Assembly: GCA_905221615.1 (NCBI GenBank)
Contig: CAJNDT010003813.1
Location: 131,501-195,500 of the forward strand
Direction: 5' to 3'
Length of the DNA stretch: 64,000 bases
Origin: Symbiodinium sp. CCMP2592
Lineage: Eukaryota > Sar > Dinophyceae > Suessiales > Symbiodiniaceae
The notes under the pieces are model-generated. The model searched no databases. It was given only the letters and a program-made list of their open reading frames with translations, and had not been told where the DNA came from. Below, piece by piece: positions 9,575 through 57,158 of the stretch. The position numbers and the translations under genes are program-made. Every line of letters begins with the position of its first letter. Position 1 is the first letter of the stretch.

Positions 9575-9637
9575 AATATGCTCGTTTGTAGGGTTGGATC
9601 CGCGGGGGCTGGATCAGTGGGCTTGGCAAAAACCAAA
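9575..9637 (+). repeat. left terminal inverted repeat
   Basis: From 9581 it reads CTCGTTT, two variable bases, AGGGTTGGATCC, two variable bases, GGGGGCTGGATCAG, one variable base, GGG, and then less regularly AAAACCAA near 9630. The reverse complement of 57150-57091 has the same blocks in the same order and spacing. Six bases lie between the target duplication and the aligned repeat. Confidence 0.8.
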
Positions 9638-9799
9638 GTTATCAAAATCAGAAGTCAACCTGAACAAAGACTTATTGGATACGTTACGACACGGTAGGTT
9701 TGTCCAGAATTAATGTAACTGGAGATTTGCAGACACTGAAAATTGTTGAGAAAACCATGAAAAAATGTAGTATTATTTCTGTCCAAGCCGGTGTGTGAA

Positions 9800-10130
9800 C
9801 AGAGCAACCGGAAGCTGTGCCATTCCAGTGACTCCTTGCACCGACATTGGCACGTCGGGCAAGGTCACACTAGATGGCTGGCCTTTGTGTCCCCAAGCAA
9901 GGAAACTTGATGGCTCTTCGGGTGAGAGCCCGGCAACACCAACAGGTTTTCGCAAGGCTGAGGACGTCTGTGCAAGAGCCGGCAGAAGCTGCAAAGGTGT
10001 GACTCCCAAATTGTCAACAAGAAATTGTTCCTCAAGTGTGTTCACTTGTGCCATGCCACTGACCCCTTGCACCGACATGGGCACATCGGGCAAGGTCACA
10101 GTGGATGGCATCTATTGTTTCCTCACACTG
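9800..10130. repeat. two copies of the dispersed TLPD-GMAQ repeat
   Basis: Two blocks (about 9825-9890 and 10048-10112) share TGCCATKCCA ... GGGCAAGGTCACA ... GATGG. Read on the minus strand they encode V-T-L-P-D-V-P-M-S-V-Q-G-V-x-G-M-A-Q twice in one frame. The same phrase recurs inside the 1,578-residue gene and near 28.4, 47.7 and 50.0 kb. The rest of 9.64-10.58 kb shows no gene. Confidence 0.75.
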
Positions 10131-10587
10131 CTCAGAACAACCTGTCAACTTAAACAGGTTGCTGCAAGGTTGAGGAAATCTTGAGTCAGCATGGCATTGC
10201 TTGGCAAGGTTGACGATTCGAATTGAGGAAATCTTGAGGAATCCTCCTCAAGTGGGGCAAAGAAGGCAAGAACGACGTCCAAGGCCCTGATTTGCCGGCG
10301 CATACTCATTCACTGAAAGAGCCATATCAATTCTGTTCCTCCAAGTGTGTTCACTGAGACAGCCACATCGACATAAGGCTGCAAGCAAATCAGACTTGTG
10401 TCTCAATTGTTATGCAACCTTCTCATCAGTCATCGCACTGTTTTACCTGTGTTGCTGCATGGCCTGCTGTTGCTGTTGTGTCACAGCATTCACACCCCAA
10501 AAACCAGTCACAGCAGATTGGCTTGAATAATAAAAAGCATGCAGCTCAGTAAGCTATGAAACGTATTTTGGCTGACGAAGCGGATCG

Positions 10588-11945
10588 TCACAATAGATTC
10601 CGGACAATCTGCGCAACTGCTTCCCCGAACATCGAAGTGTATTCCCCACTAGCCTGTACATCTGCTGGCACACCGGTGAAACGGCCGTCTTCGCCTCGGT
10701 TTACCAGACCAATGAAAGCATTATGATCTGGTTTGGGCCTGGCCAGGTTCTCAAAATGAAACCCAGGCAAATGCCACAGTTGCAAGGGCTTCACTGACTT
10801 TCCGTTAAAGGCACCCATGTAGGTGCAAGTCTTTTCGAAGCCACAAAAGGATAGAACTGTTTTGACACACTCGAGGTGCGGCATACAGGAGCTGAGGGGC
10901 TGTTCCACCACAGGGCAGCACTCACATGCCCATCCCAGGAAAATCCCAAGTGAGCAAACAAGGGCCTGACAATTTCCCTGCAATACAAAGTCCCGCTCAG
11001 TCCATGCGCCTTCCCAGCCGTTGCTTTCAGCACGTTGGGAACGAAATGAGCACATAATGACAAAAGAAGAGCACGGAGTGCCCCACCAATGCAAAGCCTT
11101 CTTCTCACACGCTGTGGCTGCATCCAGAAACAAACGCAACCCTTTCGCTAGCAACATGTTGTGTTCGTCATTGTAGAGTATGTCAAAGCTGCACCCACGG
11201 AGACCGGATTCGATCAATTTCTTCGAAAGTTTGGCGCTCCCTGCATAGTATTCAATGTATTGCAGCAACCCCGCACATTGATGGGGTCCCACATCGATTG
11301 AAGCTGCTTCAATCTTGGCTCTGTTGTCATAGCTACGGCTAATGATGCACATCAGCTGACACTCGATGGTTCGGTTCTTCAATGCGGGATAAGCCAATCC
11401 AATCAGCCCATGCCATTTCATGGCCACTCTGCCCACATTGAAGTCCTGGTCGTAGCGCAAGAAATTTTGCACCAAAATCCTTGCAACCATGAGCCTGTGA
11501 CACCAAGGCTCTGTGGACCTGGCCAGCAAGATCAATTGAGGATGATGATAAGTTTATGTAGTATTACATTAATTAATGAAAAATTCAAATTATAACAAAA
11601 TCTGTGACCCATAACACTTTGAACAGACTCCGGCCTTGGGGAGAAAGACAAGGAAGCAAACGGAAGGAAATGCGAACATTGCAATCGCGATGTTTGCTCG
11701 AAGACGTCCTCTACCCAAGTGTCAAACCGATCATCAATTTCATCAGTTCCTGTAACTGTATCGGTAAAATTCAAGGCAGGAAGAGTACACGGGCGCTCCA
11801 CTGATCTACCTCCCAACTCAAATGACTCTGCAGCATTCTTTTTCCTTTTGCATTTCTTGCGTGCTGGCTTCACAGGCCCAGCACTACCACTGAAGACCAG
11901 CGATGATCCCAGCACATGCTGGCACGGCCACTGGAAATTGGACAT
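10588..11945 (-). CDS. C5-methyltransferase-like protein, 413 residues, two exons
   Basis: The model is exon 1 at 11945-11635, a GC-AG intron at 11634-11519, and exon 2 at 11518-10588 (TGA). The reading frame is continuous and gives 413 residues from MSNFQWPC. Exon 2 carries I-E-Y-Y-A-G-S-A-K-L (residues about 192-201), which looks like an AdoMet-binding motif I (D/E-x-F-x-G-x-G). C-S-F-D-I-L-Y-N follows, then W-W-G-T-P-C-S-S-F-V (about 248-257) in the place of the catalytic P-C loop, and E-Q-P-L-S-S. I recall this arrangement as a high-copy dinoflagellate family of unproven activity. Classical C5-MTases have P-C-Q, and here it is P-C-S-S, so RNA or DNA methylation is only possible, not shown. 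The N-terminal 100 residues are basic and low in complexity. It is the last gene before the left inverted repeat, co-oriented with the others. Confidence 0.75.
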
Positions 11946-11949
11946 GTTG

Positions 11950-12485
11950 GTGATTCACTGACATCAATACATTGATTTGTTGTCCCACATAACTTTAAAC
12001 CATACCTCTGGTCCAACTTGAGCAACAAATGGATTCAATGCTTGCCTGGCATATCAAGCACATTCCACAAACTAACAGGACACAATGTCAGGAAGGCTTG
12101 TTTTTGCTGATCGCTTTCTCCCCGAGCAATCTGCAGCATAACTATGGTGAGACTTCATGATTCATGTCATGTCATCTTCAATTGCACACTTCAGGCATTC
12201 AGCAACTGTAATTGCAACGTAACTGTAAAGACTCAATCACAGAATGAACAGCAACTGCGCACAAGCTGAAGCCAAAATTGTGAATCGAACATGTTGCCGC
12301 TATGACAGCAGGAGCAGATTCACACACATTGGACTCGGCTGGATGAACTCACTCCCTGTGACTTCTTGAATCGACCGAAGACTTGAAGCTAAGAACACGA
12401 TACTTGCATACATGACATTGACAGAAATCTGCAACCTGCTGACATGTTTTCCCCTGTGATGTGTTTATCACCAAAAAAAACTGAA
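11950..12485. other. spacer between two element genes
   Basis: About 540 bp between the start of the methyltransferase-like gene and the stop of the 1,578-residue gene. I see no coding sequence, only a TCATGATTCATGTCATGTCATC stretch of overlapping short repeats near 12.15 kb and an A-run at 12472. It presumably holds the 3' end of one transcript and the 5' region of the next. Confidence 0.5.
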
Positions 12486-12489
12486 GAGG

Positions 12490-15400
12490 CTACTTGGCAT
12501 ACTTTGTGGGCGGAGGCATTGCGTCGATAATCGGGGCAAGGCGTTCCAGGACAGCCTCAGGGATAGTGCCAGGCTGACAATGAGGCGGCAGTTGCCTTTC
12601 AGGTTTGGCCTTCTCCCACTCTGTCCACGCCCAGCGATGCACTTGAGCCAGTGCTTGCTTCCAGTCTGATCTGTCGTTAGCAAAGCTTTTGCTGCAAGAC
12701 TTTTTCCCCTCACTTGACACATACTGTTTTGTCATGATCTCGGCTTTGAAGCGATGATCGTTGAAGCTGAGACGCAACTTGAAGTCTTCGGGTGGATCCA
12801 ACTCCGACAGGAAGTCGGGAGTGTTATTCAAGTGTGGACCATGCTCGCGCGGAGCACGTTGCGATGCCTGGCCACGATGTGCAGCATCATCAAGGACCTG
12901 CTCAGGGGCTGATCCGCTCGAGGACGAGGCCTGTGCCATTCCACTGTCCCTTGGCCCGGATATTGGATCCGGCAAGGTCCCATTGGATGGCTGTGCTTGC
13001 ACTTTTGTTTCCTCGTGTGCGACCCCGGCACCACCAAGCACAGAGTGTGGACGGGAAGCATCGACACAGGGCTCCTCCGCCGGGGGGGCGGGCTCTCCTT
13101 CACCAGTGTGTGGACTGGGAGGATGGGCGCAAGGCTCCGGTGAGGGGGCGGGCTCTCTTGGACTGGGAGCATGGACACAAGGCTCTGCCGGCAATGAATC
13201 AGGAGTTGTTCGATCGTCCATGACATTCATGTCCAACAGCTGGCTTTCCAACTCCTCTTTGAGTTCAGAGATATCTGGATCTTCTTCCACTGCTGGTCCG
13301 GGCATTTGTTCGAGCACCTGCTCCTTGCGTTTTCGTGACGCTGCTTGCCTGCGAGCCAGCCCTTGCAAGCCCAAAGCTGTGCCTCTTCCAAACCCATTGC
13401 CTTTTCCACGGCCTTTGCCTTTTCCTTTGCCCTTGCCTTTGCATTTTGCTTTGGCACACGGTTTTGACTTTGCTTTGGCTTTTGCCACAGCTCTCCTCGC
13501 TCTTTTGGCCTGCAATCGAATCACAATTGAGTCACAATTGAGTCACATTTGAATCACAACAATTGAGTCTAAGCCTAGCTCAGAAACTCACTGGAAGGTC
13601 TTGCCAGGGTGCCTTTTGTTCTGCAACCTTCTCATCCCACATGTTTTGCCAACGTTGTTGCTCGGCCTGCTGTTCCTGTCGCATCAGGGCTTTCTCCAAG
13701 TCCTGGAAATCCTGTTTATCTGAGGGCTCCATGTTGTCCAACAATGCTGATAGAAAACCATCAGGCATATCTGCATCAGGAGCCTTCTGAGTGTCTGACT
13801 CTGCAGCTTCACGGCAAGCTTCTGCAAACTCTTCTCCGAAACACTCCTGACACTGTTTCAACAACTCCTTCTTGGAATTCTTGTGGGGTTGTGTCACATT
13901 CAAGTAGTCCGCCATCAATGTCAACTCCGCAAAGGTCCTTTTGTGCCCGGAGCGCAAAGTGTTTTGCACAAGTGGTTCCCAACCACACGTGGCTTTGAAA
14001 TAGAGTCCTGCCTGTGTTGACAATTTCGGAGTGGCTTCACATGCTTCCCATTCCTCAGGGTTGTGAAGGAACTGCCATGAGCAACCGGCCTCCACTTGCA
14101 ACTGCCAGCCCGAGCACCTGCCGCCCTCATGAACTTCGGACAACCGCCATGCCAACACTGCCCATTTGAAGGATCCCAGAACAATGTAGGTCTCTTCCAC
14201 ATTGCGCAAAGTAATGATTTGCCCAAACTGGGCAAACACAGCCCACAAGCCGTCCTCAGGAACATGTTGTTCTTAGAACAGAGCTATTCAATCACAGACC
14301 GCTACTTTGCTGATTCACCCCAGGCCTTCAATTTCACGTTCTGCGTGCTCAAGTTGTTCTGCGAATAGTAGCGCAGGAAGGACCATGATGCTGCAGAAAC
14401 AATCAATTGTTGTTCAGAAATGGTGTCCCACGTTTTGGTTGCTAGGACTTTCGACATTTCCTTGGGGAGCTTGTGATGTGCGGCAACAAATTCTGGATTG
14501 GCTCTGAAATCATCCTTGGCCTTGTGCCAGTACCTCAGGAACTTCTCTCTGCTCAACTTGGCAGGGTGAGCCATGCCCCGACACTCCAATATGTCGGAGT
14601 TGGTCAGCAGCTGCTGGATACATGTCCCCGTGAGTTTTTGGTGTGCTTTCGGACCTGTGGCTGTTCGTAAGAGTTGGTGACAATCCTCGACGATCTTGCT
14701 GTCCGGAAATGTGGCTGTGAGAAAGCGCAACAAATCTAGTCCTGCTTGGTAATTCAAACGCCAGCCAACTGACTGAAACTGAAGGGCAGTGTAGCGCATG
14801 CAAGGATCAAAAGTCAACCTGAGATCTGCACTCAGCATGCGAGCCTTAGGCGCGCCACTGCATTCCAGGCTTTGCAAGCAAAGCCAATCTGTCTTCATCA
14901 GTTTCATGGCATTGATGGCATGGGGAGAAGGACCACTCAGCACTTGGGTGTAACACTCCGGAGGGGAGCCATACTTGGAAAATGTTGCACACCGATTCGC
15001 CAGCATCTCCAAGCCATAATCCATGACTTTCGTTATGAATGTTTCAGACTCCTGGACCCAAAACAGCAAATCATCCCAAGTCTCTTCGGAAACCATGATT
15101 GCCGCAATTCCTCTCAAACTCCAGTGCTGGTTCCAGCTAGTGCTCATGACCTGTGTCTCGGTCAAAGCGTCCTCGACAGTTTTGATCTCGTGGAGTTGTG
15201 CACTGTAGTAGTCCCAGCAAGGCTCCTGCAGCCGTGCAATAATGTGTGCGTTCTCCCAAGTCACCCATGAATGGCCCAGATAGGCCAGTTTCAGTCCTTT
15301 AGCTTCTTTGAAACACAATTGAGGTTGGTTGATGTCATCCGGACCTTGCTCGGAACGAAGGTACCACTCCAAAACCATTCGGGAGGCCGTAAACTCGGAC

Positions 15401-17625
15401 AGATTTTCCGCAGCAGCCTCATTCCACGAAAACCACCGAGACGGTTTCGTGCATCCCCCCTTGACTTTCCAGGATCTCATTTTTTCCGGAAGCGCGGTCC
15501 AGACATCGTGGTCTGAGGCTCCCCTCATATTAAACTCGAAAGCAATGCGAGTCTTGTACTTGTCGAAGATTTCGCTTTCCTGGCTGAGGTACAAGTAGAA
15601 TTGTATTGGTTAAACAAATACTGACTATATTATTATATGAATTGTACAATATTGAGAATTGGAAAAGCCTGGCCTCGTTGTTGGACTGCAGAAAACTTTC
15701 GAGTGCGTCCTGTTTCTCTGCAAAGAAGCCGCCAGAGCCGAAGGGCTTGTAGTTCAGGGTCCACATGAACGTCGTTAGGAGGACATTTTTGTGGAGTTGT
15801 CCTCTGAGCGGCCCCTTGATATCCCTATGCAGGCGATGGATTTTGTCGTAACTGTAATGTACGAGCAAGTTCTGGTCCAAGGAAAATGCGTTGGCGGCAC
15901 ACCCGATGCTGCCTTGATCCATCAATATGTGCAACATCGGAATCATGTCTGCAGACTGTGCGTCAAAACTCATACTGTGCACTGTGGCTGGATCCTCTGT
16001 ACGGATGACTTCCCATTCTGCACCACGAAAAGTTGCTTGGTCTCCCGGGTTCAATGGGGCCAACATGGACAGCAGCTGAGAGTCCGGCTGGAAATCGGTT
16101 ATTTGCAACCCGGCGATTTTGAAGCACTGACTGCTGACAGCCTGGAAAAACTTCAGGGTCGAAAGTCTCTCAATTTCTCGACGTGCCGCCAAACGTTCGA
16201 CTTCCGGCATAAGGTCATATTGTCCCGGGCGAAGGATTTTGGCCGAGTTCACAAATTGAGCAGTGGCATGGGCAAAACAATTGGCAGAACTGTTGTAAAA
16301 AAGACTCACAAGCCAATCTTTCGTGCTGTGGTGGGAAGAATCAGTGACCATGGTCAGCTTCCGAACATTGAGAAATGACAAGGAGCTTTCTTGCTTGTAC
16401 AAGCTCAGCATCTTCCGCTGCCACAGAGAAACAGAGCCAGGCCTGACACCGCCATCTCTGTCCGTCTCTCTGATCTCAGCCAACTTCATCATCGAGACCT
16501 TTGTGTTGCGTGCTTGTTCAATGAAGTCCCAAATCCGGTGAACGGACATTTTCCGGCGAGGGTCTTCTCCATCATCAGCAGACCTGCGAGCAATGCAACT
16601 GCAACTTCATAACTTAACTCACTTGACAAATTGATTTCAAATGAAATGATGCCCCCGGACTCCTGAATGCAGAAATCAACCTTACCCAACAGCCAACCTC
16701 CTTCCTCGCCCTGACAGTCGTCGTGAAGGAACTGCTCTCTCCAACGCTTGGTTTGCCTCTACATGCTCCAAAATGCTGTGGGCCATAGCTCCATGCAAAA
16801 TCTGGAAGACAGTGGCTCGCAATTGTTGCAGAGCAGCCAAGCTATGGTTTTTCCAGGGTGACATGTTTCTGGATCGACGGACCTTCGCAGCATTGAGGAC
16901 AAAAGCGAGCACATCCAAAAACAGAAGTTCTCCCTGCCAAGGGCCTGACAGTACAGCTTCTGAGTACATGTTGCCCCAAACCTTTCTCCAAGACTCCAGA
17001 ACTGAAGCATGTAGTGAGGAAAGAAAGTCTTGCACTCCCAAGACCATTCCATTGGGCTGCAACATGAGGACATGGTTCCCAGCAGTGCCATGCACATCGA
17101 TGCTCAAGCCATGCTGTCCAGCCGCGTATGCCTGGGTTGTAGCCTCTGCTGAGATTTTCCGGAACATATCCCAGAGGTAGGTCGACTTGGCTGCAGTTTG
17201 GCTTTTGTCCAGTAGCTTTGCAAAGAACATCATCAGCAGCATGGTACTGGCACAATTGCAATTCAACATACTTGTCCTGAACCAGGGCCACTTTTGCCAA
17301 GTATTTGAGTATGTGTGTGCATACATGTACTGTCAAGGATTTCATAATTTAAGGTTCGTGGCCTGAGGTTCATTGAACGATAATGCAAATCTTTCTCTGT
17401 CAGGATATCCTCGGACAAGCAAAGGTCTTTCAGTGTTTTGGCATGTTTCGTCAGAGCGTTTTGCTCGCCATTCTCCATAAGCTTGTCCATGACATATTGC
17501 AGATCCCAGTACAGCTGGGAATCATCAGGATTGCGATATGCCACCGGGCCAAAAGCCACAGCAAGACCTTCCATGACCAAAGAGTCTGCATTTGCGGGCA
17601 CATGCTGGAAACATGGCTCAGCCAT
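12490..17625 (-). CDS. 1,578-residue protein, six exons, transposase candidate
   Basis: I joined six exons: 17625-17331, 17247-16686, 16583-15669, 15583-14319, 14271-13592 and 13509-12490 (TAG). Their lengths sum to 4,737 nt with every junction in frame. Intron starts include GT and GC (15668). The first intron is flanked by a CAGTAC direct repeat that makes its exact ends ambiguous. The start is the ATG giving MAEPCFQHVP. The central part (residues about 500-590) has L-M-D-Q-G-S-I-G, then H-Y-S-Y-D-K-I-H-R-L-H-R-D-I-K, then N-Y-K-P-F-G-S-G-G-F-F-A-E-K-Q. This is followed by P-S-R-W-F-S-W-N-E and, much later, D-S-K-I-V-E-D-C-H-Q. I recall this order of motifs in a very abundant, uncharacterised dinoflagellate family. 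Spaced acidic residues would suit an RNase-H-fold transposase, but that is inference. The last exon begins with a Lys-rich tract (probable nuclear signal), followed by a Pro/Glu-rich linker holding one T-L-P-D repeat. Confidence 0.8.
13510..13591 (-). other. 82-bp GT-AG intron built of CAATTGTGA repeats
   Basis: The donor GTGAGT follows codon CCA and the acceptor TTGCAG precedes GCC, both in phase 0. The interior repeats GACTCAATTGTGA-like units three to four times. It is the clearest example of CAATTG-rich intron sequence in this element and is identical in the second copy (32732-32813). Confidence 0.85.
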
Positions 17626-17639
17626 GGTCACATATTATG

Positions 17640-18120
17640 TGTACTGTAACTTTGCGATTTGAAATGTCAAAGTCCTATTGCACAAATGTTGAGCCATGTA
17701 ATTTTACAGTTCACACATTGCCTTAACGTGGGGGGAAATGTCCCTCTTATTATTTAGGTGGAACATCCCAGGCGAAATTGAAGCTACAGAAACATGACAA
17801 AATGTCTGCACCGAACAGAGAACAACCACATGAGAACTTGTGAAGCTATTGGCCATGAGTGCAATTGCAATTTTTTTCGCCCTTGTTCCGCGAACCCCTC
17901 ACGGACTTGAAGACAGCCTTGTGTCGGAACTGAAATGAGCCGCAATCGGCAATGCAGCATCCAGTAATCGTCATCAGTGCAACAGCCATTGGCGTGCTTT
18001 GGGCTCCCTGTGAAAATTGTATTTAGGATTGAATTGGTTGTCACTTTAATGTGCCATCCATACCCATGCAAGACAATGAAATGCTGTGCAACTGCTGAAT
18101 TGATCTACTGAGTTACTGCC
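17640..18120. other. spacer between RING gene and 1,578-residue gene
   Basis: No supported exon. A short minus-strand open frame at 17784-18071 (MHGYGWHIKVTT...) has no recognisable feature. The region should contain the RING gene's 3' end and the promoter of the next gene. Confidence 0.4.
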
Positions 18121-18122
18121 AC

Positions 18123-21049
18123 TCAAGCAAAAATTGTATTGGGTTCAGTGTTCTCCAGGATCTCGAAGCCATGGTCGGCCTCCTGACCATTGCGATTTCC
18201 CTCATCCACGTCCATCGGCTCCGGAATCGAGCAACGTAGTGGGCAACGACTTCCCGGTCTGGTGTTTGTCGATTCCGCCCAGCGCAGGATGCAGTCTTCG
18301 TGAAACCAATGCCCGCAGTGGAGCCGGAGCAAGACTTGTTCCCCCTCATCCATGGTGTCCTGGCAACCAAAACAAATTGTCAAATGAGGACATCACAACA
18401 CTCACAAGGTCTACACTGGAGATGGAGCTGAAGCAAGCAACACTCGTGGGATCCATTCCGTCCTGGCAAATGAGACATATGGGAAGCTCAATGGCCTCTG
18501 ACTCTGCTTGGATCTCTTGCTGGTCCTGCTGAACTGTTCCAGCTGCAAGGGTGGCTGGGGGTCCGGCTGCTGCATCGGGAGCGGGTGGATGCTCGCGGGG
18601 TGTTGCTGCCACAACTGGTTCAACCACAGCATGCTCCAATGTCTCGGGCTCAATTGTGGGAGGGTTGGCTGGAGGCACAACATGATCAGGGGATGCGGGG
18701 GGCATCGCTGGCATTGCTTTGCTCAAAGTATGCATAGCCTTGGGAGCCACAGCAGGGGATGTGCTTGTTGATGGTTCTGCCGAAGGCATTGTTGGCATTG
18801 CTGCATGGCCGGCCTGCTTGGGCGGAGGGGGCACCCGGGGTGCTGCAGGGGCTGCGGGCTGAGGTGGCCCAGACGTTGCTCGCACAGGTGGGACCCGGAT
18901 CGGGGCAGGTGTGACAGCCTTGGCATGTGCCGGCAGAGGCGCCTTTGCCGGTGCAGGTGGTGGGCTTGCAGTTGCACTTACTGCCACAGGTGCTGGGCGG
19001 GCACGTGCTGGCGGCATTGTTGCTTTCGCCCCTGCCTGCAAAATCATGCCAACGTCACCTGAGGTTGGAGCTTTCGCAAAACAGATGCTGACAGGCTTCA
19101 TGAATGAGTCCTGCCAGCCCAGAGGGCGAGCAATCTCCTCTATTGCAGCGTCTGTCAAATTCAGGGGCAGCTTCGAGGCCAACTGTTCCATGAACTGTGG
19201 TTCGCACCGTCGGACACGATTGAATGCCGTTTGGAACCGCATGTGCAAGTCTTCGTAGGATATCACACCTGCACAGCCAAAGATGAAGTCTCAATTGAAT
19301 GTTCTTATGAATAATAAAGCTGAAAAAACCGACCAGACGAACAACCCGTAATGGCATGATCATTCACTGACCCAAAATGACATTTCCTCTATAGTGTCCT
19401 GGCAATAACATCTGACAAGTCACGGAGATAAGAGAGCCGGCTACTTGGCCTGAGCCTCGTCAGCATCCACAGAAGTACCAAGAGTCCCCTTTGGCTCAAT
19501 TGACTGAGGTACCCAGCCTCAGCGTTCATAGCATCTTCTCATCATGTTAGACAAATTGTCAAATGCACAAACAAAAACAAGTGACACAAATGAGAATTCC
19601 TGTCCCGCCTCCAGCTCACCGTACAATTTCTCCAAGCTGGCCACAAGCCTTGTCCTTGGAAGACCTTTCAATACTGTTGTGCTCCCTGTGATTGTGGCAT
19701 CCTCCCCCTTGTTGTAAACATAGCCGACTGTGGGTGGTGGGAGGGGCTGCACAGGATGAGCAGGAACTGTCACAGGGCCCTGAGGCACTTCATTTCCCGA
19801 GCCCGATGCTGATGGAACTTCCGGAACCACCTGCTGATGTTGTGCTGTGGCCCTGTCGGATTCCTCCTCCTCTTCCTGTTCCGAATCGTCATCCACCTCA
19901 TTCACCTGGGGGGGGGAGAATCCTGGCATCATATTCATCTGGGCATTCATCATCGGATTGCCCTGCATCGCAGCAGCCGGGTTTGCCGAACCGTGCATGG
20001 GCATCGACATATTATTCTGCATGCCAGTGCATGGGTGCATCATGGGCATGTTCATACCCGGGTTCATGCCCATCAATGTGCCGGGGTTCATGGTCATGTA
20101 AGGATGAGCTGGAAACATCATTGGGGGCATGGTCGGCTGCATCTGGCCTGTCATGACCATGTGCTGTCCATTGCCATTCCTGGAATCCGCAAGACGGGCC
20201 CGCTTGTGGCGTCGGGGAATAAGCCCTGCCATGGCTTCTGCAACTACAGGCAATTGGTGTTCCTGTAGCAATGGTACTTCAAACCGAACCCTTGAGCAAT
20301 TCAGGCAAACACAATTGACAATTCAAAGTTGAAGCAACACTGCAGGACATACAGCTGACTACAGTACAGAAAGCTCCGAAAAGCACAGAGCTTCTTATTT
20401 GTTGCAGCCATTCCGAGCCGTGTTGGTCCACACAGTATTAGCAGAAACAAGCGAGCTAGTAAACATTGTCCTTGTACCACTGCCGAATCTCACTTTTGGT
20501 TTTGCCCGACCCTTTCTGGCCCGGGTGTGAACATTGCGAAATTGAATTTGACTGAAAGCAGTCAGCCAAGAGAGTCCTCACTTGTTGCCATGTTGACCGT
20601 GAATCGGAAATGTCAATCTCCAAGTCACAGAGCACCTGCAGATCCTCCAGCACGTAGTGACCTCAGTGGGGCAGCAACACTTTATTATGGTTATGTGTTA
20701 TGATTTAACAAACAACACAGCGGTTTTGTTCAAAGGACAAACACATCAGGATGATTGCTCTGAAGGCACTGACACAATGCCACCTCAATTGAAATGAATC
20801 AGCTGTCAGAAGTGTATCATCATCGTCAGAATTGTTTGCTGGCACATCATGGGGTGACGGAGCTATGAGAGCCGCCAACATGGTCTTGGCTTTGAAGACA
20901 AGCAATCGATGAGACCAGGCCAATGGCAGGTCACACTGCAACAAATGTAACAAGCAATCACTGACTTGGTTTCCTTCCACCTCCGGCCAAGTAGGCGGTA
21001 GAGCCTGCACTGCTTCCAAAGCCCATTGCTGTTCTTCAGCCAAAGTCAT
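18123..21049 (-). CDS. RING-H2 protein with Met-rich and Ala/Pro-rich linkers, about 698 residues
   Basis: The exons are 21049-20776, 20661-20582, 20262-19620, 19268-18406 and 18359-18123 (TGA). Their introns are GT-AG and the frame holds across all junctions. The first junction (T|GTGTCAG) is the least certain because a second in-frame donor lies nearby. The C-terminal RING is split by the 46-bp last intron: C-L-I-C-Q-D-G lies before it, and L-H-C-G-H-W-F-H-E-D-C plus C-P-L-R-C after it, giving a C3H2C3 set. Such domains normally recruit E2 ubiquitin-conjugating enzymes. Upstream are a Met/Pro/Asn-rich stretch (MQPTMPPMMFPAHPYM...), a Glu/Asp run, and a long Ala/Pro-rich linker. A folded block of about 70 residues (YEDLHMRFQTAFNRVRRCE...) follows the third intron. 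Nothing similar is known to me from classical DNA transposons. Confidence 0.75.
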
Positions 21050-43078: not shown

Positions 43079-43185
43079 AGTAGATTGAAAGTGCAACAGC
43101 AATTGTGTTCCAAATTGACAATTCTCAGCTTGTTCATCAGTGAAATACAGTCTAAAACTGTTCCCTTAACAGGTTTCTATACATT

Positions 43186-48111: not shown

Positions 48112-49146
48112 TCAATTGTCATTGTTCACTTGCAGTCGTCTGGCTTCTTCCCGCCAGAGCCGCCATCCATCATCTAAATCTGTCTCATCCACACTGTCAC
48201 GATCTGTGTCAGGCTCTTCCTCCGGACGATGTGCACGTAGCTCTCTCTCAGCCGCACTGTCAGGATCTGATGCAGGCTCTTCCCGCGGTTCATCTGGAGG
48301 AAAAACACGCCGACCGCGCGTGCCAGGAATGTGCAGAATCTGATGGGTCGGGCGGGTCAGGGAAAAGTGCTCGTTCCGATGGAAATAGCTGCGACGACTT
48401 GCATGGATGATATATGAACCAAACTGTACCCCGTACTCCTGTGCTTCGTCCCACAGGTTGCTCTGGAGCACAACCCAGCTGTCGGCTCTTTCCAGCCCGC
48501 GAACATAATCGATATTCCTCTGAGAGTGAACGAATGTCCTGAGGCAGTGCCGCATCCACCTCCTGACCAGCTCCGGGTGATTCATGACCCAGCATCTGCG
48601 AGCACGACGGCAAGTTGTCCGAAAATTGCAAAGGCAGTCCACAGTGAGCAACTCGTGAGTCACATGAAGCCAATAGTAACCATCTTGCAAATTCACTAGA
48701 TGGTGTACCGACATTGCACCCTCTTGTTTGTTCATATCGTCATGGCGGTCAAGGCGGTTGATTCGCCATCGCACTGGTTGCCACGGATACTCGTGCCTCC
48801 AAAGAGGACGATTGACATCATAATGCAAAACATGATCGATCAATATGGGGCGTTCCTGTGGCAAAATTGGCGGATTGTTTGCCCTGAGTCGTCTCATGCG
48901 CTCCTCCTCCCAGCCGGACAAAACGTAACCATTGAGATTCGTCCTGTAAAAATGCCTGTTTCTTCTGTTCACTTGCAGTCTCTCCGGCGTGTCGGATCGG
49001 TTGGACTCGGACCACGGGGGGAGTGGGCTTCGAGGGCTGCTGGATCTGCTCCTGGAAAAGCGACGCCAATTGAAATTATCATAATTAAACGGCGGCGGCA
49101 ACGGCGGCTGCAAGGGCGAATTGCTCCGGCTACGGCCCCTTTGCAT
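48112..49146 (-). CDS. RS-rich 344-residue protein, second copy
   Basis: Counterpart of 28865-29899, complete. It is noticeably more diverged than the neighbours (about ten residue changes), with no frame break. Confidence 0.65.
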   Translation of the reverse strand: MQRGRSRSNSPLQPPLPPPFNYDNFNWRRFSRSRSSSPRSPLPPWSESNRSDTPERLQVNRRNRHFYRTNLNGYVLSGWEEERMRRLRANNPPILPQERPILIDHVLHYDVNRPLWRHEYPWQPVRWRINRLDRHDDMNKQEGAMSVHHLVNLQDGYYWLHVTHELLTVDCLCNFRTTCRRARRCWVMNHPELVRRWMRHCLRTFVHSQRNIDYVRGLERADSWVVLQSNLWDEAQEYGVQFGSYIIHASRRSYFHRNEHFSLTRPTHQILHIPGTRGRRVFPPDEPREEPASDPDSAAERELRAHRPEEEPDTDRDSVDETDLDDGWRLWREEARRLQVNNDN

Positions 49147-49513
49147 GATTCTGCTGTTTCCTTGAAACTGTCCAGCCCATTGTCACTGGAGCTATCCGCT
49201 GACTCAATCAACGATTGAGTTGCTACTGTTCAAGATCCTTCCTTGCTCCAGATGTAGAACCGTCCAGTTCTCAGCGCTTCACAATTGATCTGAGACACGA
49301 CAATTGTGACACAATTCATGGACATGCAATTCATTTCCACAAGCATCACTGGACAAAGGACAATTTCGGCAATAGCTCAGGTTTCCCACAGCTTTTTCCC
49401 CCAATCGAAACTTGCTGGAATCTTCTGGAACCTGCAATTGCAGCTAGTGATCTGCAAATGGCAGAATAATTACTAATTCAAATTTGTCCTGTGCGAATCA
49501 CATCGGTGAAACA

Positions 49514-49750
49514 TCAGTGCTTGACCGGCAACTGGCTTTTGCAGGTTGCAGATTCCTCTGACACACTGCCTTTGGACTCCGCCAAAACCACATCATCACA
49601 TTTGCAGTCGTGCGAGATCATCTCCAAGCGCTTGTAGTCCCATGCCGGCAGGTAGCTTTCAAAGTGGAACAGCATGCAGCTGAGGCACCTTTTTTCGTCC
49701 ACATAGCACTGAAGGGATTCCACATAGCCCTCCTTCTTGGGATTCGACAT
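49514..49750 (-). CDS. small Cys-rich protein, 78 residues
   Basis: ATG at 49750 (MSNPKKEGYVESLQCYVDEK), stop at 49514. The cysteines are at C-Y-V-D-E-K-R-C-L-S-C and H-D-C-K-C-D-D, a possible zinc site. It lies just right of the contig-overlap end, so only contig B shows it. I do not recognise the family. Confidence 0.5.
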   Translation of the reverse strand: MSNPKKEGYVESLQCYVDEKRCLSCMLFHFESYLPAWDYKRLEMISHDCKCDDVVLAESKGSVSEESATCKSQLPVKH

Positions 49751-49959
49751 GATCGTCAATCAAAATTTCAAACCAAATTGATCTTGGGGGACAATGGCTG
49801 CAGCTGAAGCAAGACAATTCTAACAGCAGGCAAACCATTCCAAGACTGGATGTAAGAGGCTTTCACTGAAGACTGAGGCGGCTGCATGGTGATGGTTCTC
49901 TTTGTCGCAAACAACCTGACAGAATTGAAGAATTGTTCATTTCTTGGCTTGGCTTTCAA

Positions 49960-50090
49960 CCGCAACATGTGCCATGCCAGTTGCCCACTCATGCACTGAC
50001 ACAGATTTGTCAGGCAAAGTTTCACTGGATGACTTTGCTGTGCCCATGACACTGTTTCCTTTTGCACTCTGATGGTTCATAGAGTTGTAC
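49960..50090. repeat. dispersed TLPD-GMAQ repeat, diverged copy
   Basis: It has TGCCATGCCA, CACTCATGCACTGACACAGA, GGCAAAGTTTCACTGGATGA and the TGTTTCCTTTTG tail. On the minus strand it reads S-S-S-E-T-L-P-D-K-S-V-S-V-H-E-W-A-T-G-M-A-H. Confidence 0.7.
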
Positions 50091-50296
50091 AGCACCATCA
50101 GGTTTTTATAAGGAATCTGCAAGTCAAGCAAACTCTCAATTAATTGTGTACAACACTGTCACTTCATTGTGCACGAAACTGTCATCACAATAAATCAATT
50201 GTGTGTTTTGAGTCACAGAGGCAGAGGTAGGCGCATTGTCAGTGTCAGTGACCTAATTGGCAAAAGGACTCGACACCGATTCGAGGAGTCAGAGTT

Positions 50297-51322
50297 TCAG
50301 GCCGGATCGTGCTCGTCCTCGGATTCAGAGGACTGTTCCAACAGCATGTGTAAGTATTCGTTCTCTGAGTCTGATGTTTCGTCACACACTTCATGTCTGT
50401 ACATTGGCTCATCATCACTCATTGCATGGGCTTCGTCTTCGTCCTCATCCTCTATATCCTCATTTTCGGGAACTTTGTCTTCCTCTGGGTCTTCATCCTC
50501 TAGATCCTCATCTGCTTTACAATGATAAGGGTCCAGTGACTCCTCAGACTCTGACGACAGCATCAGAACCTCGTCCAACTTCAGAGCCATTGCTTCCAAT
50601 TCTGCCCGCATTTTTTTGTTTGGGCAAGAGTTCTCAGGGGTCCAATCCCGAAAAGTAAGGAGCTCCTCCACGTTTGAGAACGGTTGTGTGTAGCCAGTGG
50701 CTCTCGAAAGCATGAAAACAGAGGAAAACCACCCATGCAAGAATCCGATCATCGTCAAATCTTGTGAAACTGGTGGCTCGGCACATTGTAGAAGCCACTG
50801 GATCTTCCTGTAATGCTTCCTGCAGATCTGATCCGCCTCCTTCTGCAACTTCTTCGAGGCTATAAATTCCGGAGACCATACCCAAAGAAGCCCCTCAACC
50901 AGGTCTCCAAGTTTCTCTTCGCCCCAAGGATAGGCTCTGCGAAATCCAGGCAGAAGCAACTCCAACGCCATTGTGTATAACGCATTCCCAGGATCATGCG
51001 GTTGCCCATTGTAGTACAGGCAGCCTCCGTGAGATATGTGTTTTCGAAATTGTGATGGGTAGTCAGCCAAGCCCTGGAACACACTCCGAAACCTGCGCTG
51101 AAGTTGGCCTGAATCTGCTCTCAAAAGATCAATCATCTGGGCCACAAATATTGTTGCCGACCGCACTTCACGTGGATCCACATACAGGTTCTCCAGGACA
51201 TTGCTACAGTCACGGCAACAATTGAAGTAGTGCCGAATTGGCGTTTCAGCTGATTTCTGGTACCACTGGGATTTCCTCCAGTATGAATGAGGCAGGCAAC
51301 GCTTGCAAAAAGGACACTCCAT
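50297..51322 (-). CDS. zinc-binding protein with acidic tail, 341 residues
   Basis: Intact frame from the ATG at 51322 to the stop at 50297. The N-terminus has C-P-F-C-K-R-C, then S-Q-W-Y, then F-N-C-C-R-D-C, a compact Cys cluster typical of a treble-clef or ribbon-like zinc site. I recall a similar C-x2-C...W-x-x-x-Q-W...C-C-x2-C arrangement in anonymous dinoflagellate proteins. The middle (residues about 60-250) is helical and globular, with aromatic residues (G-L-L-W-V-W-S-P-E-F). The last 100 residues are strongly Asp/Glu-rich with Ser (S-S-E-S-E-D-E-H-D-P-A). Nucleic-acid binding is plausible for the N-terminus and histone or protein interaction for the tail. Neither is shown. Confidence 0.65.
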   Translation of the reverse strand: MECPFCKRCLPHSYWRKSQWYQKSAETPIRHYFNCCRDCSNVLENLYVDPREVRSATIFVAQMIDLLRADSGQLQRRFRSVFQGLADYPSQFRKHISHGGCLYYNGQPHDPGNALYTMALELLLPGFRRAYPWGEEKLGDLVEGLLWVWSPEFIASKKLQKEADQICRKHYRKIQWLLQCAEPPVSQDLTMIGFLHGWFSSVFMLSRATGYTQPFSNVEELLTFRDWTPENSCPNKKMRAELEAMALKLDEVLMLSSESEESLDPYHCKADEDLEDEDPEEDKVPENEDIEDEDEDEAHAMSDDEPMYRHEVCDETSDSENEYLHMLLEQSSESEDEHDPA

Positions 51323-51419
51323 CGCCACCAGGAAAAGTCACATGCGAAAAAATGCTATTTGCGTTTGGCCTCAGCAGCCACCTCTCAATTCTAAAATGCT
51401 GCAATTGTGACAATTGAGA

Positions 51420-52170
51420 CTCAATTGTGAAAGTGTTCATCCAGTAGCATGGGAATCCAAAGTGTAACTACTGTTCGGAGCAGTTCTGAACTTTGACACC
51501 AACAGCTGCAAAAACATGAATCTATGACCAGACGACTGACTAACACAACATTTTCATCGACAACTCACCAGTGAGATCGATGTCACTGCCTCCTGCAACT
51601 CGAGGAACTCCAGCACCTGAGCACATTGGAAGCTGTATGATATGATATTATATTATGTGTTTCTGTGTGTGTGTGTGTGCTTGGGTGATAGCATGAATTA
51701 ACTTCAAACTGACTGACACGGAATTGTCAGAGTCTGTGTGAGTCGAGGAGAATGAACCAATCAGAAGAGCTGGAATCAGCTGAGTAGATTCACTCAACCA
51801 AATCACCAGCTGAGTATGGTACTTAGTGTACGAGCACCAGAAAGTGCCATGGATGAAAGCTCAACATCTCATTGGAGCTTTCAGCTCAGTCAGCCGGGCA
51901 GTCAGCTCACTTCAAGTCGGGTCGAACAGTTCCAGTGGCGGCCGCTCTGTCGAAGCGGATGGCGGGTGTGGCTGGGACATTTCGTTTCCTGTAGCCAGCA
52001 CAAGCTCACTACTTCACCACATTTGAGTTTAAGGACTTGCACTGTCCCCGAACAAGGACAAGTTGCCCACACATTGTCTCAGCCAGCTCGTACTCTGTTG
52101 TCTCTCACCATGGCGCATCAGCATGTTCATCCTTGGCACTACAGATATTGATTGATTCATGTGAGTCTGA
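51420..52170. other. spacer with a GT microsatellite
   Basis: No exon is supported. A GT/TG run (about 51660-51680) and several TCAGCTGAGT-like repeats at 51770-51905 are visible. Plus-strand open frames here lack protein character. Confidence 0.4.
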
Positions 52171-52173
52171 GTC

Positions 52174-53563
52174 TTAAAGGGATGTAATGGTGCACAATGA
52201 ACCAATGAACAGTTCAAGCGGCATGAGCTTGACCTGGCGCTGCAATGGGAAATCGTGATGGGTGGCCATGTGGAAGAACTTGTCCTTGAGATCCTCAGGG
52301 ATATAGTAGTCCTCCAAGATCTCCAGCCTCAACTGTTTCATATAAACAATACAACACTGTAAACTGCATGCAAATCCCTGCCAGGCTGCATCACAGGGTC
52401 TCTGTCGATGGTAGGGGCTACTTCTTCATCGGGCTCCTCTTCTTCCTCCTCTTCCGACTCCTGGTCGATTTGCTCCTGCTCAGCCTTGTAGGGCTCCGAC
52501 TTCTCAGGAAGACTCGGATTCCACGCTGTGAGGTCCGCCAGCGCACCGGCAGGTGCCAGTGGAACACTGTGCTCAAGTGTTGACATGAATTGAAGTTCCA
52601 CAAGTTTTGGCTGCAGCCTCTCCCACACAGCATTCGCCAAACTCGACACCATGTTCTCAATTGAAGATCGAGCTGAACTGTTGCTCGGCAGTGCAGCACC
52701 ACCACCTAGGAATGTCTGAAAGCATTCCCCAACAGCCATCTCACATGCCGTCATCATCGGAAGTGTTGGGTTTGCTGGCGCCGGCGGAGGAAAGGCAGGT
52801 TGAACTGGATGTGTTGCTGCCAGACGTGCATCCCTTGGATGTAACGGACGAGACTTGGGCGGATCTTTCGGTTCCGGCACACCCTCTGGAGAATCAACCT
52901 CAACCACTAGCGGCTTTGGCGGCTTTGCAGCCGGCTTTTTCGGCTTTGCAGGCATGGCTTTTCGTAAGAGGTGCTGGCTTTGTTTTTGCCGTTGCCCCTA
53001 CTTCTGCTGATGCCAATTTTTTTGCTGGCGGTCTTGCTTTTGGTGGTGCTCCTGCTTTTGGTCCTGCCCCTGGCTTGTCTGTTGATGCTGTTGCGCTGGC
53101 TTTTGTTTTTTTTGCTGGTGATGCTTTTGGATCATTGGTCCACTCTGGAGCGGGCACTGGTGGCCTGGCAAAAGCCGGAGTAGCAGAACTGGAGGATGCA
53201 GGATCACCACCCCCTCTTGTGGCGTCATCGACATCTGTCTCCGGGATCTCAAGCGGAGCAGTTCGTGCTCTTTTGGCATCTGGCAGCACCTCAAATGCTT
53301 TGCATTGAAGACGACACACACACACACACTCAATTGAGGATGTCAATTGTGACTGAAATGTTATTATTTATTCTTGAAGCTGAAGCGAAAATGTAGTGTT
53401 GCTCCCAGCTGCTGCTGCTGCAGCAGTTCCTCTTGACTTCGTCTTCTGATTTCGCTTCTGAAGCTTCTGAAATGTCCTGGAAGGTAGGTCCACGGGATGT
53501 TCCTGCTTGTCCTTGACCATTCTTGTTTTCAAGTTCCTGAGTCAAAGTGGTACGTGTTGGCAC
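52174..53563 (-). CDS. Ala/Pro/Lys-rich protein with acidic segment, several exons (model incomplete)
   Basis: Pieces in order on the minus strand are: 53563-53420 (T-Q-E-L-E-N-K-N-G-Q-G-Q-A), 53300-52900 (KRARTAPLEIPETDVDDATR, then Ala/Pro/Lys-rich), 52955-52380 (MPAKPKKPAAKPPKP, then M-V-S-S-L-A-N-A-V-W-E-R-L-Q-P-K-L, ending in a Glu run) and 52327-52174 (L-R-L-E-I-L-E-D-Y-Y-I-P-E-D-L-K-D-K-F-F, stop TAA). The second and third pieces are in different frames, so a short intron, a frameshift or a separate start lies between them. The Lys/Ala repeats resemble histone-H1-like tails. No family is recognised. Confidence 0.45.
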
Positions 53564-53569
53564 TACAGG

Positions 53570-54325
53570 GCAGACTGCAAATCAAATCAATGCGGAATTC
53601 GAGTCCAGGCACATCTGAATGGAAGCCCAATCATTCTGATTTGCAAATTGGTCGGTCCATGTGGTCCAAGCATTTTGCAATGCTGCCCCCCATTCATGCG
53701 ACGACCAACCAATGGACGGCAGGAGATGCTTCTGCTTCCTGATGCACACTTTGGCAGAACCATGGATTGCATTTAAATATTTACATATTACAACCTCAAA
53801 ACAACATTCGAAAATCTGAAGCTGCTCAGCGACACGTCATGGCCATTGGCGAAGTCGATAATGTGCTGTTGATCGGCAGCGATGGCTCTGTAATCTTCCT
53901 TTCTGTGCTTCTGGACTAAAGTGTCCAACCATGCGACGCATTCGATGCCACAGACCTGCACTGACAGCTGATATACTTACAAAAACTAGACAATTGAGTG
54001 TCACCTGGACCAATGAGTCAGTTCAGCACAGCGACTTGGAAGAGAGCCATGACCAACGCAATCATGGCACACGTCCTGTGCCATCCCGCCGAACAGCAGA
54101 TCCTGACAATTGAAGGACCACATAGGAGGGTTATAATTATCCTAGTCCCTGAACCTAAAAAAAACCTCCAAGACCTTCAGCATTCAAAGACTCGAGAAGC
54201 CTGAGCAACTTGTCGGGAAAATTGAGGATGAAGTGGAGCGTCTTGAGCGCTGCGGGATGACTATACACCTCGGTCATTAGGGTGAATTCTTATTAAAATT
54301 AAAATTAATTATTATACAACTCGAT
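53570..54325 (-). other. unresolved exon-bearing region
   Basis: At 54283-54180 the minus strand reads T-E-V-Y-S-H-P-A-A-L-K-T-L-H-F-I-L-N-F-P-D-K, which looks like a real exon (helical, low-bias). A second possible piece is at 54110-54030. I cannot fix junctions or decide whether they belong to the gene on the left or the right. Confidence 0.35.
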
Positions 54326-54904
54326 TCATGAAGCAACACCTGTTCGACCAGGCACCTGTTCCATGATATGCTGGTATAGGCCACATTCTCTGCCAAACCT
54401 TCCTCCTTGGGCCTCCCTTGGCTTCCATCCATGACTGTCACTGTCACTGCCCTCAATTGTCAATTGAGTGAAACTGAAATGAATGAAAAATGTACAAATG
54501 TCATGAAGCTTCGACACGTGCATTTGCACCTGCAAGCGAACCTCCCATTTGTTAGAAAAGTTACTTTCCTTGTCCAACCTCTCCAACAAGTCTGCCATCT
54601 GAGGTGATGGACGATTTCCATGGGCGGCAACCCCATAACCAACGATCACCACTCTCTTCGGCCAAACGTAGGTTTTGCCGCCCACCAAAACTGACCTCGA
54701 AGTGTTGGAGCAGAAAGCAGCTGTCGAAGAGCTCGGGTTGTCAATAGAGCTCACATCGTCATCAGTAGCATCAATAGCCGGTTCGTGGTCTCCACCGTCC
54801 CCAATCGTCCGAGTCGTCTTCTTCTTTTCCTTTGCCCCGCCCCAAGTCACCGGAACTTTTCGTTGAGGCGTCTGCGGCTTTCTTGCTGCCGTAGTTCCCG
54901 ACAT
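54326..54904 (-). CDS. basic protein, 192 residues (166 if a 78-nt intron is spliced)
   Basis: ATG at 54904 (MSGTTAARKPQTPQRKVPVT), TGA at 54326. A Lys-rich N-terminus is followed by an Asp/Ser linker and a possible globular part (L-V-G-G-K-T-Y-V-W-P-K-R-V-V-I-V-G-Y-G). Within it a GTGCAAATG...CAATTGAG stretch of 78 nt (about 54455-54532) is in frame with no stop but has donor and acceptor dinucleotides and CAATTG repeats like neighbouring introns. It may be an optionally spliced intron. This is the first gene from the right end of the element. Confidence 0.5.
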   Translation of the reverse strand: MSGTTAARKPQTPQRKVPVTWGGAKEKKKTTRTIGDGGDHEPAIDATDDDVSSIDNPSSSTAAFCSNTSRSVLVGGKTYVWPKRVVIVGYGVAAHGNRPSPQMADLLERLDKESNFSNKWEVRLQVQMHVSKLHDICTFFIHFSFTQLTIEGSDSDSHGWKPREAQGGRFGRECGLYQHIMEQVPGRTGVAS

Positions 54905-55324
54905 CGAATTGGCTGTATGCTATCCCCAAGCTTTGATTGTGCCTCGAATGAACACGGAATTGTAATGATGAAAGTTTAAGCGCCAAAAAAAAGGGCTGCA
55001 TCAATCTTTGCCAAAGTGCTCTCTAACGTTCTTGTTACAGGCTGACAGAATCCAGGCTTCTGGTTTCTGGATGCCGTCTCTTCCCCGTTTGAAAGCTCTC
55101 CTCAAATGTTGTTGCATTGAAACAATGACATGTCAGGTAGCAAATTATTCTCAATTGGAAATTGTCTGAAATGTACTGCAGGTGTCACAAGATCAACAGC
55201 CTTTCTCGGGCAGAGCAAATAGAGCAAGTAGATTGCTTGCTGTGCTTTCCGGAGATCCTGGCCCTGCTCCTCGAGACACAATTCCTCAGGGAGATGCTGG
55301 AGGGCCACACTCGACATAGCACAA
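54905..55324. other. no gene recognised
   Basis: Probable 5' region of the first gene. An open minus-strand frame at 55317-55102 (MSSVALQHLPEELCLEEQGQ) reads like protein and could be a small exon. It starts just left of the 206-bp repeat. Confidence 0.35.
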
Positions 55325-55735
55325 CTTGAGCCAGAACTGCAGCATTAGGTTACAAGGGGCTCACAATCAATCACCAAGCAAGCTGACACACACACACACA
55401 CACACACTCACTGAGCCTTCCGCGCAAATATCACTCACATGCCTTCTGAAACGACTTCACCTGGCAAAATGCAAATTTCATGCCAGCCCTGCCCCCCCCC
55501 CGGCTCTGTCAAAACATGCCAGGCAGACCACTTGAGCCAGAACTGCAGCATTAGGTTACAAGGGGCTCACAATCAATCACCAAGCAAGCTGACACACACA
55601 CACACACACACACTCACTGAGCCTTCCGCGCAAATATCACTCACATGCCTTCTGAAACGACTTCACCTGGCAAAATGCAAATTTCATGCCAGCCCTGCCC
55701 CCCCCCCGGCTCTGTCAAAACATGCCAGGCAGACC
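55325..55735. repeat. tandem duplication, two 206-bp units
   Basis: Both units start CTTGAGCCAGAACTGCAGCA and include a CA microsatellite and a C-run (CCCTGCCCCCCCCCGG). They are nearly identical, so the duplication is recent or recently homogenised. Confidence 0.9.
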
Positions 55736-55736
55736 T

Positions 55737-56180
55737 TGCCATTGATGCTACCACAATAGTTATACTACCGCAAATCATGCTACCACAATTAGCGCTACCA
55801 CAATTGTTACTACCACAATTGACAAGTTGATGCTACCAGAACTGATGCTACCAGAATTGATGCCACTGCAAAATCGAATCAACCAAGCCAAGCAATGCCA
55901 TGCTGACTACCACAGTTGCTGCTACCAGAACTGATGGTATCAGAATTGATGCCACCGCAAAATCGAATCAGATGCCACCGCAACAATCGAAGCAATCAAG
56001 CCATGCAATGCCATGCTGACTACCACCATTGACATTGATTGATGCTACCAGAATTGATGCCACTGCAGCATCGAATCAACCAAGCCAAGCAATGCCATGC
56101 TGACTACCACAATTGATTGATGCTACCAGAATTGATGCCACTGCAGAATCGAATCAACCAAGCCAAGCAATGCCATGCCG
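55737..56180. repeat. interspersed GATGCTACCA(C/G)AATT units
   Basis: Short units CTACCACAATT and GATGCTACCAGAATTGATGC recur at irregular spacing. A 60-70 bp block with AATCGAATCAACCAAGCCAA and GCAATGCCATGCTGACTACC repeats four times. Confidence 0.85.
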
Positions 56181-56183
56181 ACA

Positions 56184-57090
56184 CAGTAACGGCCTCCCCA
56201 GCGTCTTTGCAAACACGAGTGTGCTCTGACAGTCATGCGGACTGGAGACTTCTTTAAATGCCACCCCCATTCGGCCAAGATGGGGTCACCCTGCTGAGTA
56301 TGCGCCGTCTTTGCCCTATGCGGAGCGCTGAAATCCGATTGCCTTGCATACCGGCCCGCAAGAGGACAGGTCATGCTCGTCATCGAGTGCACCGGAATCG
56401 CTGCGCAACGCGCCGGTTACTGAAGACCTGTCAATGAGGCACAGCATAAGATGCCATGCGGGGCCATGCCGGCAAGCAGCAGTGATCGAAGTTAATACTT
56501 CGACCGTGGTGTGGGTACGTGGCATAGTATTTATTAATAGTAGCGAGGCCTTCCCTGCAATCTGTGTGCATTTCACCCCGCGGCGGACACACCACCTGGC
56601 TGGACAGGCGAGCAGCACACAGAGTAAATCCCCAGCGCCCGGCCAGCGACGCTGTCCCGCACGGATCAAGGACCCATTGCTCACGTGGTCCGAGCCCGAC
56701 TGGAGCGGTCTCTAAGACCACTCTGAGCTTGGGCGTGCAGGATGGGTAGGGCGAGTCGAACCAAGCCAAGCAAGCCAAGCAAGCCAAGCAAGCCAACCAA
56801 GCAACCAAGCCAACCAAGCAGTGGCACGTGACAAAGGACCACGTTTCAGCTTCCAACACATCCGGCTTGGACAGAAGCGAACACCATCGCTCAATACATC
56901 CGGCTTGGACAAATGCAAAAATGTTTGGCAAAAAAGGGTTTCCTCACGCTGGCTTCCCAGTGTGCTTTAAAATGTTTTGGTCAACGGCCGTGCCCCCGGC
57001 ACTGAAATTCCTAATAAAATACATAAATAAGCTAATACTACAACAGCTTGAAACCTTAAATCGGTATATTGAACTGCACTATTGAGGAAA
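56184..57090. other. right subterminal region, no gene recognised
   Basis: It contains a CCAAG/CAAGC run at 56762-56822 and an A/T-rich tail near 56995-57065 (CCTAATAAAATACATAAATA). It is more G/C-rich at 56.2-56.75 kb than the rest of the element, which may mark a nested insertion. Confidence 0.45.
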
Positions 57091-57158
57091 TTGGTTTTGG
57101 CCTTCAAACCCCCCTGATCCAGCCCCCAAGGATCCAACCCTCAAAACGAGTGTGTGGA
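57091..57158 (-). repeat. right terminal inverted repeat
   Basis: Read on the minus strand from 57150: CTCGTTT, TG, AGGGTTGGATCC, TT, GGGGGCTGGATCAG, GGGG, and AAAACCAA near 57092. Five mismatches in the first 41 positions against the left end. Eight bases lie between it and the target duplication. Confidence 0.8.

Follow-up and report, generated by a model that had tools for sequence, protein, structure and literature searches.

A 64-kb window of contig C3813 from the dinoflagellate Symbiodinium sp. CCMP2592 holds what is very probably an autonomous class II cut-and-paste transposon of giant size, about 28-29 kb, moved by its own hAT-like DDE transposase and spread very recently. As assembled, the element occupies 9573..57158 with termini 5'-TC...GA-3', which comes to about 28.3 kb after an assembly overlap is discounted. 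It ends in imperfect terminal inverted repeats (TIRs), is flanked by a 5-bp target-site duplication, and interrupts a decayed long interspersed nuclear element (LINE). Comparison of its sequence across the 1.098-Gb genome assembly suggests that the family spread very recently and to about a hundred places.

Ends, target sites and length

Several lines of evidence define the ends. In other copies, homology begins at 9573 and stops at 57158-57160. The left TIR (9573..9622, plus strand) and the right TIR (57109..57158, minus strand), the latter recognised by the TIR core pattern and by its in-register match to the left end, agree at 40 of the first 50 positions. A chance inverted repeat was rejected: among 20,000 pairs of 50-mers drawn at random from the left contig of the element, the best reached 25 matches in 50. 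The inverted repeats of the earlier note (41 positions with 5 mismatches) correspond to positions 9-49 of this 50-position alignment. Each end also carries two repeats of GGNTGGATC. The flanks at all eight loci first fetched, the window included, end in TC, and identity stops at the left end; because TC ends all eight, it is assigned to the element, and the start proposed earlier, 9575, moves to 9573.

The target-site duplication reads TACAC and stands, in two identical copies on the plus strand, at 9568..9572 and 57159..57163. A wider sample comes from genome searches with the terminal 601 bases and with the TIR core CTCGTTTNNAGGGTTGGATCC, which has 258 exact occurrences in the genome (reversed control, 0). 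The 601-base searches placed both ends in correct orientation on 11 contigs, the window's included, 23.7 to 83.7 kb apart, and 20 further converging pairs, 4.5 to 43.9 kb apart, were found among 100 listed places of the 258 cores. An exact 5-bp duplication flanks 27 of these 31 end pairs, or 26 of 30 distinct sites, since C1335 and C1599 have both flanks in common and count as one. As a control, mismatched left and right flanks were set against each other 930 times and agree in 12. A+T makes up 87% of the 27 duplicated targets. The duplication TACACTC proposed earlier is thus retained in its TACAC part and shortened from 7 bp to 5 bp, which is the exact length in all 27 duplicated pairs; the longer figure arose because the element's own TC by chance also follows the target in the LINE. 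Likewise, other copies bear out that homology ends at the inverted termini and that the flanks differ, with a duplication of 5 bp in place of the 6-8 bp expected.

The terminal sequences of two contigs, C725 and C825, are divergent (TCAACACGCTCG... and TCAACACACTCG..., respectively), with spans of 8.8 and 17.4 kb, and C725 carries the exact duplication TCAAT. This suggests older or diverged subfamilies.

The insertion site supports the same limits. The interrupted LINE lies on the plus strand, with its 5' part, including the reverse-transcriptase region, at 8510..9572 and its 3' continuation at 57164..57706, the outer limits being in each case those of one open frame. When the element and one TACAC are omitted, a single frame spans the junction, ...YANDTVLLSCSAEQLTDPQ*NKCEHERLH/SSQRMFYTLQPVSPCQCQFCGG... 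(slash, junction), as the earlier note had claimed; the LINE itself is decayed and contains several stops. A genome search with the joined flanks gave 15 matches besides the window halves, on 12 contigs and at 64-75% identity. Nine cross the join (C714, C899, C613, C4918, C2902, C776, C4981, C501 and C5309); in C714 and C899 the target TTACAT/TC is present once with no gap. None of the 15 is broken at the join itself. LINE copies uninterrupted at the insertion point, which the earlier note proposed to look for, therefore exist. They are paralogous copies and not the same locus without the element; no empty allele of the site itself was encountered, in searches that were not aimed at one.

The length of the element is obscured by a 100-N assembly gap (30220..30319), at which two 19.1-kb stretches meet: 11098-30219 and a second assembly of it at 30320..49465 that is 99.48% identical. 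A real 19-kb tandem duplication is ruled out by the N gap and by the absence of the second stretch from two gap-free copies, C668 (28,865 bp) and C2624 (28,551 bp), both collinear with the window; the 28.3 kb of the window element is reached by addition. The length of about 28 kb given earlier agrees with these copies once the overlap is discounted, whereas the earlier span of 9575-57158 (47.6 kb) was inflated by it. The 64 difference sites between the stretches are few in mid-stretch, repeat arrays apart, and regularly spaced near contig ends, a pattern that fits an unmerged assembly overlap. Between 13224 and 22514 the stretches differ by no more than five single-base changes and an indel of 2 bases. 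Near contig ends (11242-12084 and 26752-30138 vs 30464-31306 and 46003-49385) differences recur every 100-160 bp, often as A/C or T/G changes, and this spacing looks like a consensus artefact of assembly. Besides the window, five copies were fetched whole: C668, C2624, C3112, C14 and C1. The last three have N gaps of their own, with shorter overlaps there in C14 and C1 and a stretch missing at the gap in C3112.

The overlap, together with the redundancy of some contigs, is what could be said for an assembly artefact, or a segmental duplication of a host gene array, as the cause of the break in the LINE. This explanation is hardly credible, given two gap-free copies of similar length elsewhere and short target duplications within differing flanks.

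The candidate transposase and its copies

The strong candidate for the transposase is a gene of several exons on the minus strand. Exon G (16685..17272) has an uncertain start relative to the upstream frame 17266-17634 and is in frame with exon F through a GTAAGG...CTCGCAG intron. Exon F (15681..16583) holds the first Asp codon (16340-16342), the second (15917-15919), a D-x2-H motif and NYKPFGSGGF. Exon E (14305..15585) contains RWFSWN (Trp codon 15433-15435) and the candidate for the catalytic Glu (codon 14686-14688, in DSKIVEDCHQ); the codon positions in F and E were read by eye. Relatives of the protein link the exons: F and E are fused in one frame in P0022, and P0006 and P0007 match both E and exon D (13583..14254) in one protein, with BLASTP E values for D of 1e-10 and 5e-7. 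A probable C-terminal exon, C (12493..13509), is Lys/Gly- and Pro-rich and has no stop or indel in the compared copies; that it joins D is suggested by position and strand. A further relative, P0014, occurs in Symbiodinium microadriaticum (82% over 25% of the query), which, with the assembly size and the style of the introns, would fit a symbiodiniacean host.

Two Asp and one Glu, at D68, D209 and E614 of the structural model, are conserved candidates for the catalytic residues. In the structural model the Glu candidate sits in helix 611-624, and among the rows listed the nearest fold is that of Hermes, a hAT transposase, so that the predicted fold is hAT-transposase-like. RAG1 and HIV integrase score no better than unrelated rows, and the listed structures include no solved KDZ, Polinton or Starship recombinase, so the comparison is uninformative for those groups. 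By sequence, a search of Pfam with 22 members of the transposase family gave no hAT match and six unrelated families, one member each (best E 0.0089), and a search of the PDB gave nothing useful.

A mechanism can be proposed from these features. The enzyme would be of DDE type, encoded by exons G-F-E-D and probably C; its core would be RNase H-like, with a large block of helices inserted after the second Asp and before the Glu, as in hAT transposases. The protein would first bind each imperfect terminal repeat at GGNTGGATC, a site suggested because two occur in each end. It would then excise the element at TC/GA, probably with hairpins on the flanking ends by analogy with Hermes, and attach the 3' ends at points 5 bp apart in an AT-rich target, where repair would yield the 5-bp duplication. 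Double-strand cleavage, hairpins and staggered joining are proposed because of the duplication and the known mechanism of Hermes. The RING-finger and methyltransferase-like genes described below may help the element against host control.

That the encoded transposase moves this element is suggested by its preservation. Across the rows compared, neither stops nor indels occur in exons G, F, E, D and C. Between the window and the five other copies exon G shows no difference, exons A, G, D and E at most one base and exons C and F at most five; exon A is only partly present in the second assembly of the window. Across the genome, exon E is stop-free in 102 of 103 scored copies (search with P0003, 103 scored of 695 candidates, the window being entered twice because of the overlap). 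One older copy, in C160, is decayed, with DNA 92-95% identical, one stop in E and frame shifts downstream. Measured against it, the ratio of nonsynonymous to synonymous rates (dN/dS) comes to 0.14 in F and 0.28 in E, figures in which part of the nonsynonymous changes postdate the decay of the C160 copy. As judged from these alignments, F and E are under purifying selection. A giant non-autonomous element moved in trans, its transposase-like gene being cargo or decayed, is accordingly an unlikely alternative: the exons intact across copies, the open frame of E throughout the genome and dN/dS values well below 1 all speak against it.

The termini are as uniform as the gene. The left 601 bases (from 9575) are 100% identical, as printed, at all 40 scored places, 38 of them full-length (404 candidates), and so are the right 601 bases at each of their 40 scored places (328 candidates). 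At two ends per element, the 258 TIR cores correspond to about 130 copies or fragments, and to fewer when redundant contigs are discounted.

Several observations weigh against an autonomous and recently mobile family of this length. Four of the 31 end pairs lack a duplication (C668, C2624, C202 and C825, the last by one mismatch), possibly because copies recombined or contigs were misjoined; in lacking it, the two full-length copies free of gaps, C668 and C2624, differ from most other pairs. The distance between paired ends varies between 4.5 and 83.7 kb, and of the unusually long and short pairs only C1209 has an explanation, given below. Six of the 15 LINE matches stop at query positions 307-310, about 40 bases short of the join. 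Of these, C5309, C501 and C4981 resume at 316, within the contig, and continue across it; C4545, C132 and C5021 do not resume. C1335 and C1599 have both flanks in common, and C5074 and C3560 one flank, which indicates that certain short contigs repeat sequence already present in long ones. Among the other genes, the RING exon in C14 has 11 gap bases, six of the eight further frames have indels in one or two rows, and some copies show indels in the frames at 27033, 28868, 50300 and 54329.

A 4.5-kb deleted derivative was considered for C1209 and rejected, as the contig holds two ends and an N gap. Extra termini lie in or beside the element in C1191 (851658), C365 (16870), C1034 and C1082, some in tandem 4-11 kb apart. 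Nested or composite insertions, or assembly joins, are possible.

Relation to known mobile elements

Likeness to hAT elements (Hermes and the hAT5 group) comprises the predicted fold, the helical insertion between the second Asp and the Glu, and the TIRs. D-x2-H and RW motifs, both present here, have a role in hAT transposases. hAT elements are a few kilobases long with one or few genes, as against about 28 kb, several genes and introns in this element, and their termini differ from TC...GA. Pfam holds hAT models, which 22 family members fail to match. With regard to the target site, a passage of PMC12730594 gives 8 bp as the usual hAT duplication, 5-7 bp for hAT5, hAT6 and hAT7, and 5 bp for the hAT5 group. 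The 5-bp duplication of the element is thus of hAT5 length and not of the usual 8.

Two placements follow. A strongly diverged, much enlarged hAT member, similar to the hAT5 group and no separate superfamily, is a tentative but serious possibility, favoured by the proximity to the Hermes fold, by the D-x2-H and RW motifs and by the existence of hAT families with 5-bp duplications (PMC12730594, in the passage noted above); the failure of all 22 members to match hAT in Pfam and the differing termini count against it. For a superfamily of its own the balance is about even. It would consist of giant DDE transposons of dinoflagellates that bear introns and multiple genes, stand close to hAT in structure, are active now or were until very recently, and have relatives in other assemblies and sequence sets; in one genome about a hundred copies, each about 28 kb long, would carry ubiquitin-ligase-like and methyltransferase-like genes to escape host control. 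Placement is left open because the structure is nearest hAT, the duplication is as in hAT5, the termini are like neither, and Pfam gives no sequence match. A search of open-access papers on giant transposons, transposons with 5-bp duplications, KDZ transposases and dinoflagellate TIR elements turned up nothing recognised as this element.

Other systems share fewer features. Transib duplications have a length like the element's 5 bp. Transib/RAG termini, however, are CAC...GTG and those of the element TC...GA, and the fold score is far below that of Hermes. The KDZ group (Kyakuja, Dileera and Zisupton) and TET-carrying fungal transposons are likewise DNA transposons with a DNA-modification gene, here the methyltransferase-like one. 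KDZ duplications are given as 8 bp, and 7 bp in Kyakuja, in part of PMC12730594; these elements differ in that length and in carrying a TET/JBP dioxygenase, whereas the present element has a 5-bp duplication, a methyltransferase-like gene and no KDZ match in Pfam. Starship-type giants have a tyrosine recombinase gene at one end; no Pfam match to such a recombinase was found in 24 element frames, scanned unspliced.

Polinton/Maverick elements and Polinton-like viruses, which also occur in protists, resemble the element in size class, inverted termini and number of genes. An integrated virus or Polinton-like virus is nevertheless very improbable. Pfam recognised no capsid, packaging ATPase or polymerase B, nor any other viral gene, in the 24 frames, in which unspliced exons can hide domains; the structural model found no viral match with E below 0.18; and Polinton duplications are 6 bp, not 5. 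An alignment of exon F compared with viral contigs gave pattern matches with no relative confirmed, as did the methyltransferase-like exon.

Dinoflagellates have large genomes with many repeats of unknown nature. With its clean ends, intact genes and near-identical copies, the present element is a defined mobile element for this group: a cut-and-paste-type transposon several times the usual length that has kept its extra genes intact. It would widen the set of hAT-like enzymes and is relevant to what fixes the length of the duplication that a DDE transposase leaves at its target. Should the RING and methyltransferase-like genes indeed be anti-silencing tools, they would parallel the TET dioxygenases of fungal transposons described in a portion of PMC12730594. 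Part of PMC5890265 reports cytosine methyltransferases on dinoflagellate retrotransposons; the likeness is a methyltransferase gene, here only methyltransferase-like as read from motifs, on a dinoflagellate mobile element, and the difference is that the present one has TIRs and target-site duplications. In Breviolum minutum, repeats labelled Maverick/Polinton are those most strongly enriched in 5-hydroxymethyluracil, according to an excerpt of PMC11071213, and some of them may be elements of the present kind.

Other genes and repeats carried

The element's remaining genes, like the transposase, lie on the minus strand and so are co-oriented, as the earlier note had it; its count of a dozen or more is replaced by three genes with some support beyond an open frame (transposase, RING and methyltransferase-like) and eight further frames. 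Scanned singly, none of 24 distinct element frames reaches the Pfam cut-off, and NCBIfam gives only sub-threshold matches on single exons.

A probable DNA-methyltransferase-like gene of two exons spans 10591..11946 (10591-~11520 and ~11640-11946). It contains YYAGSAKLS, GTPCSSF and VEQP, which we take to be cytosine methyltransferase motifs; it has no match in Pfam, PDB or NCBIfam. The gene shows 0 differences in five other copies.

The eight further frames show no stop substitution in the compared copies, some rows of which are partial or absent because of gaps, and match no Pfam model at cut-off. They include frame J (19522..20271; a 3-base indel in C2624 and a 2-base indel in the window's second assembly), frame L (21342..22274; 3 gap bases in C3112), a frame at 28868..29899 (48112-49146 in the second assembly; gap bases in C3112 (6) and C1 (1)), and a frame at 50300..51328 with Cys pairs near its N-terminus, stop-free in the four rows holding it and with 6 gap bases in C2624. 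Two internal minisatellite arrays are also present, at 22402..23639 (108/205-bp units) and 24784..25410 (174-bp unit); the first is about 310 bases longer in C668, as judged by the shift between alignments.

The RING-H2 finger gene (18163..19266), also of two exons, matches Pfam zf-RING_2 when these are approximately spliced (E 1.1e-10, 42.1 bits, cut-off 27.3); the longer exon alone has no Pfam match. Its intron (18375-18462) is flanked by the near-repeats GGACGGAATGGATCC and GGACACCATGGATGAGG, and introns bounded in this way resemble the introner-like introns of dinoflagellates.

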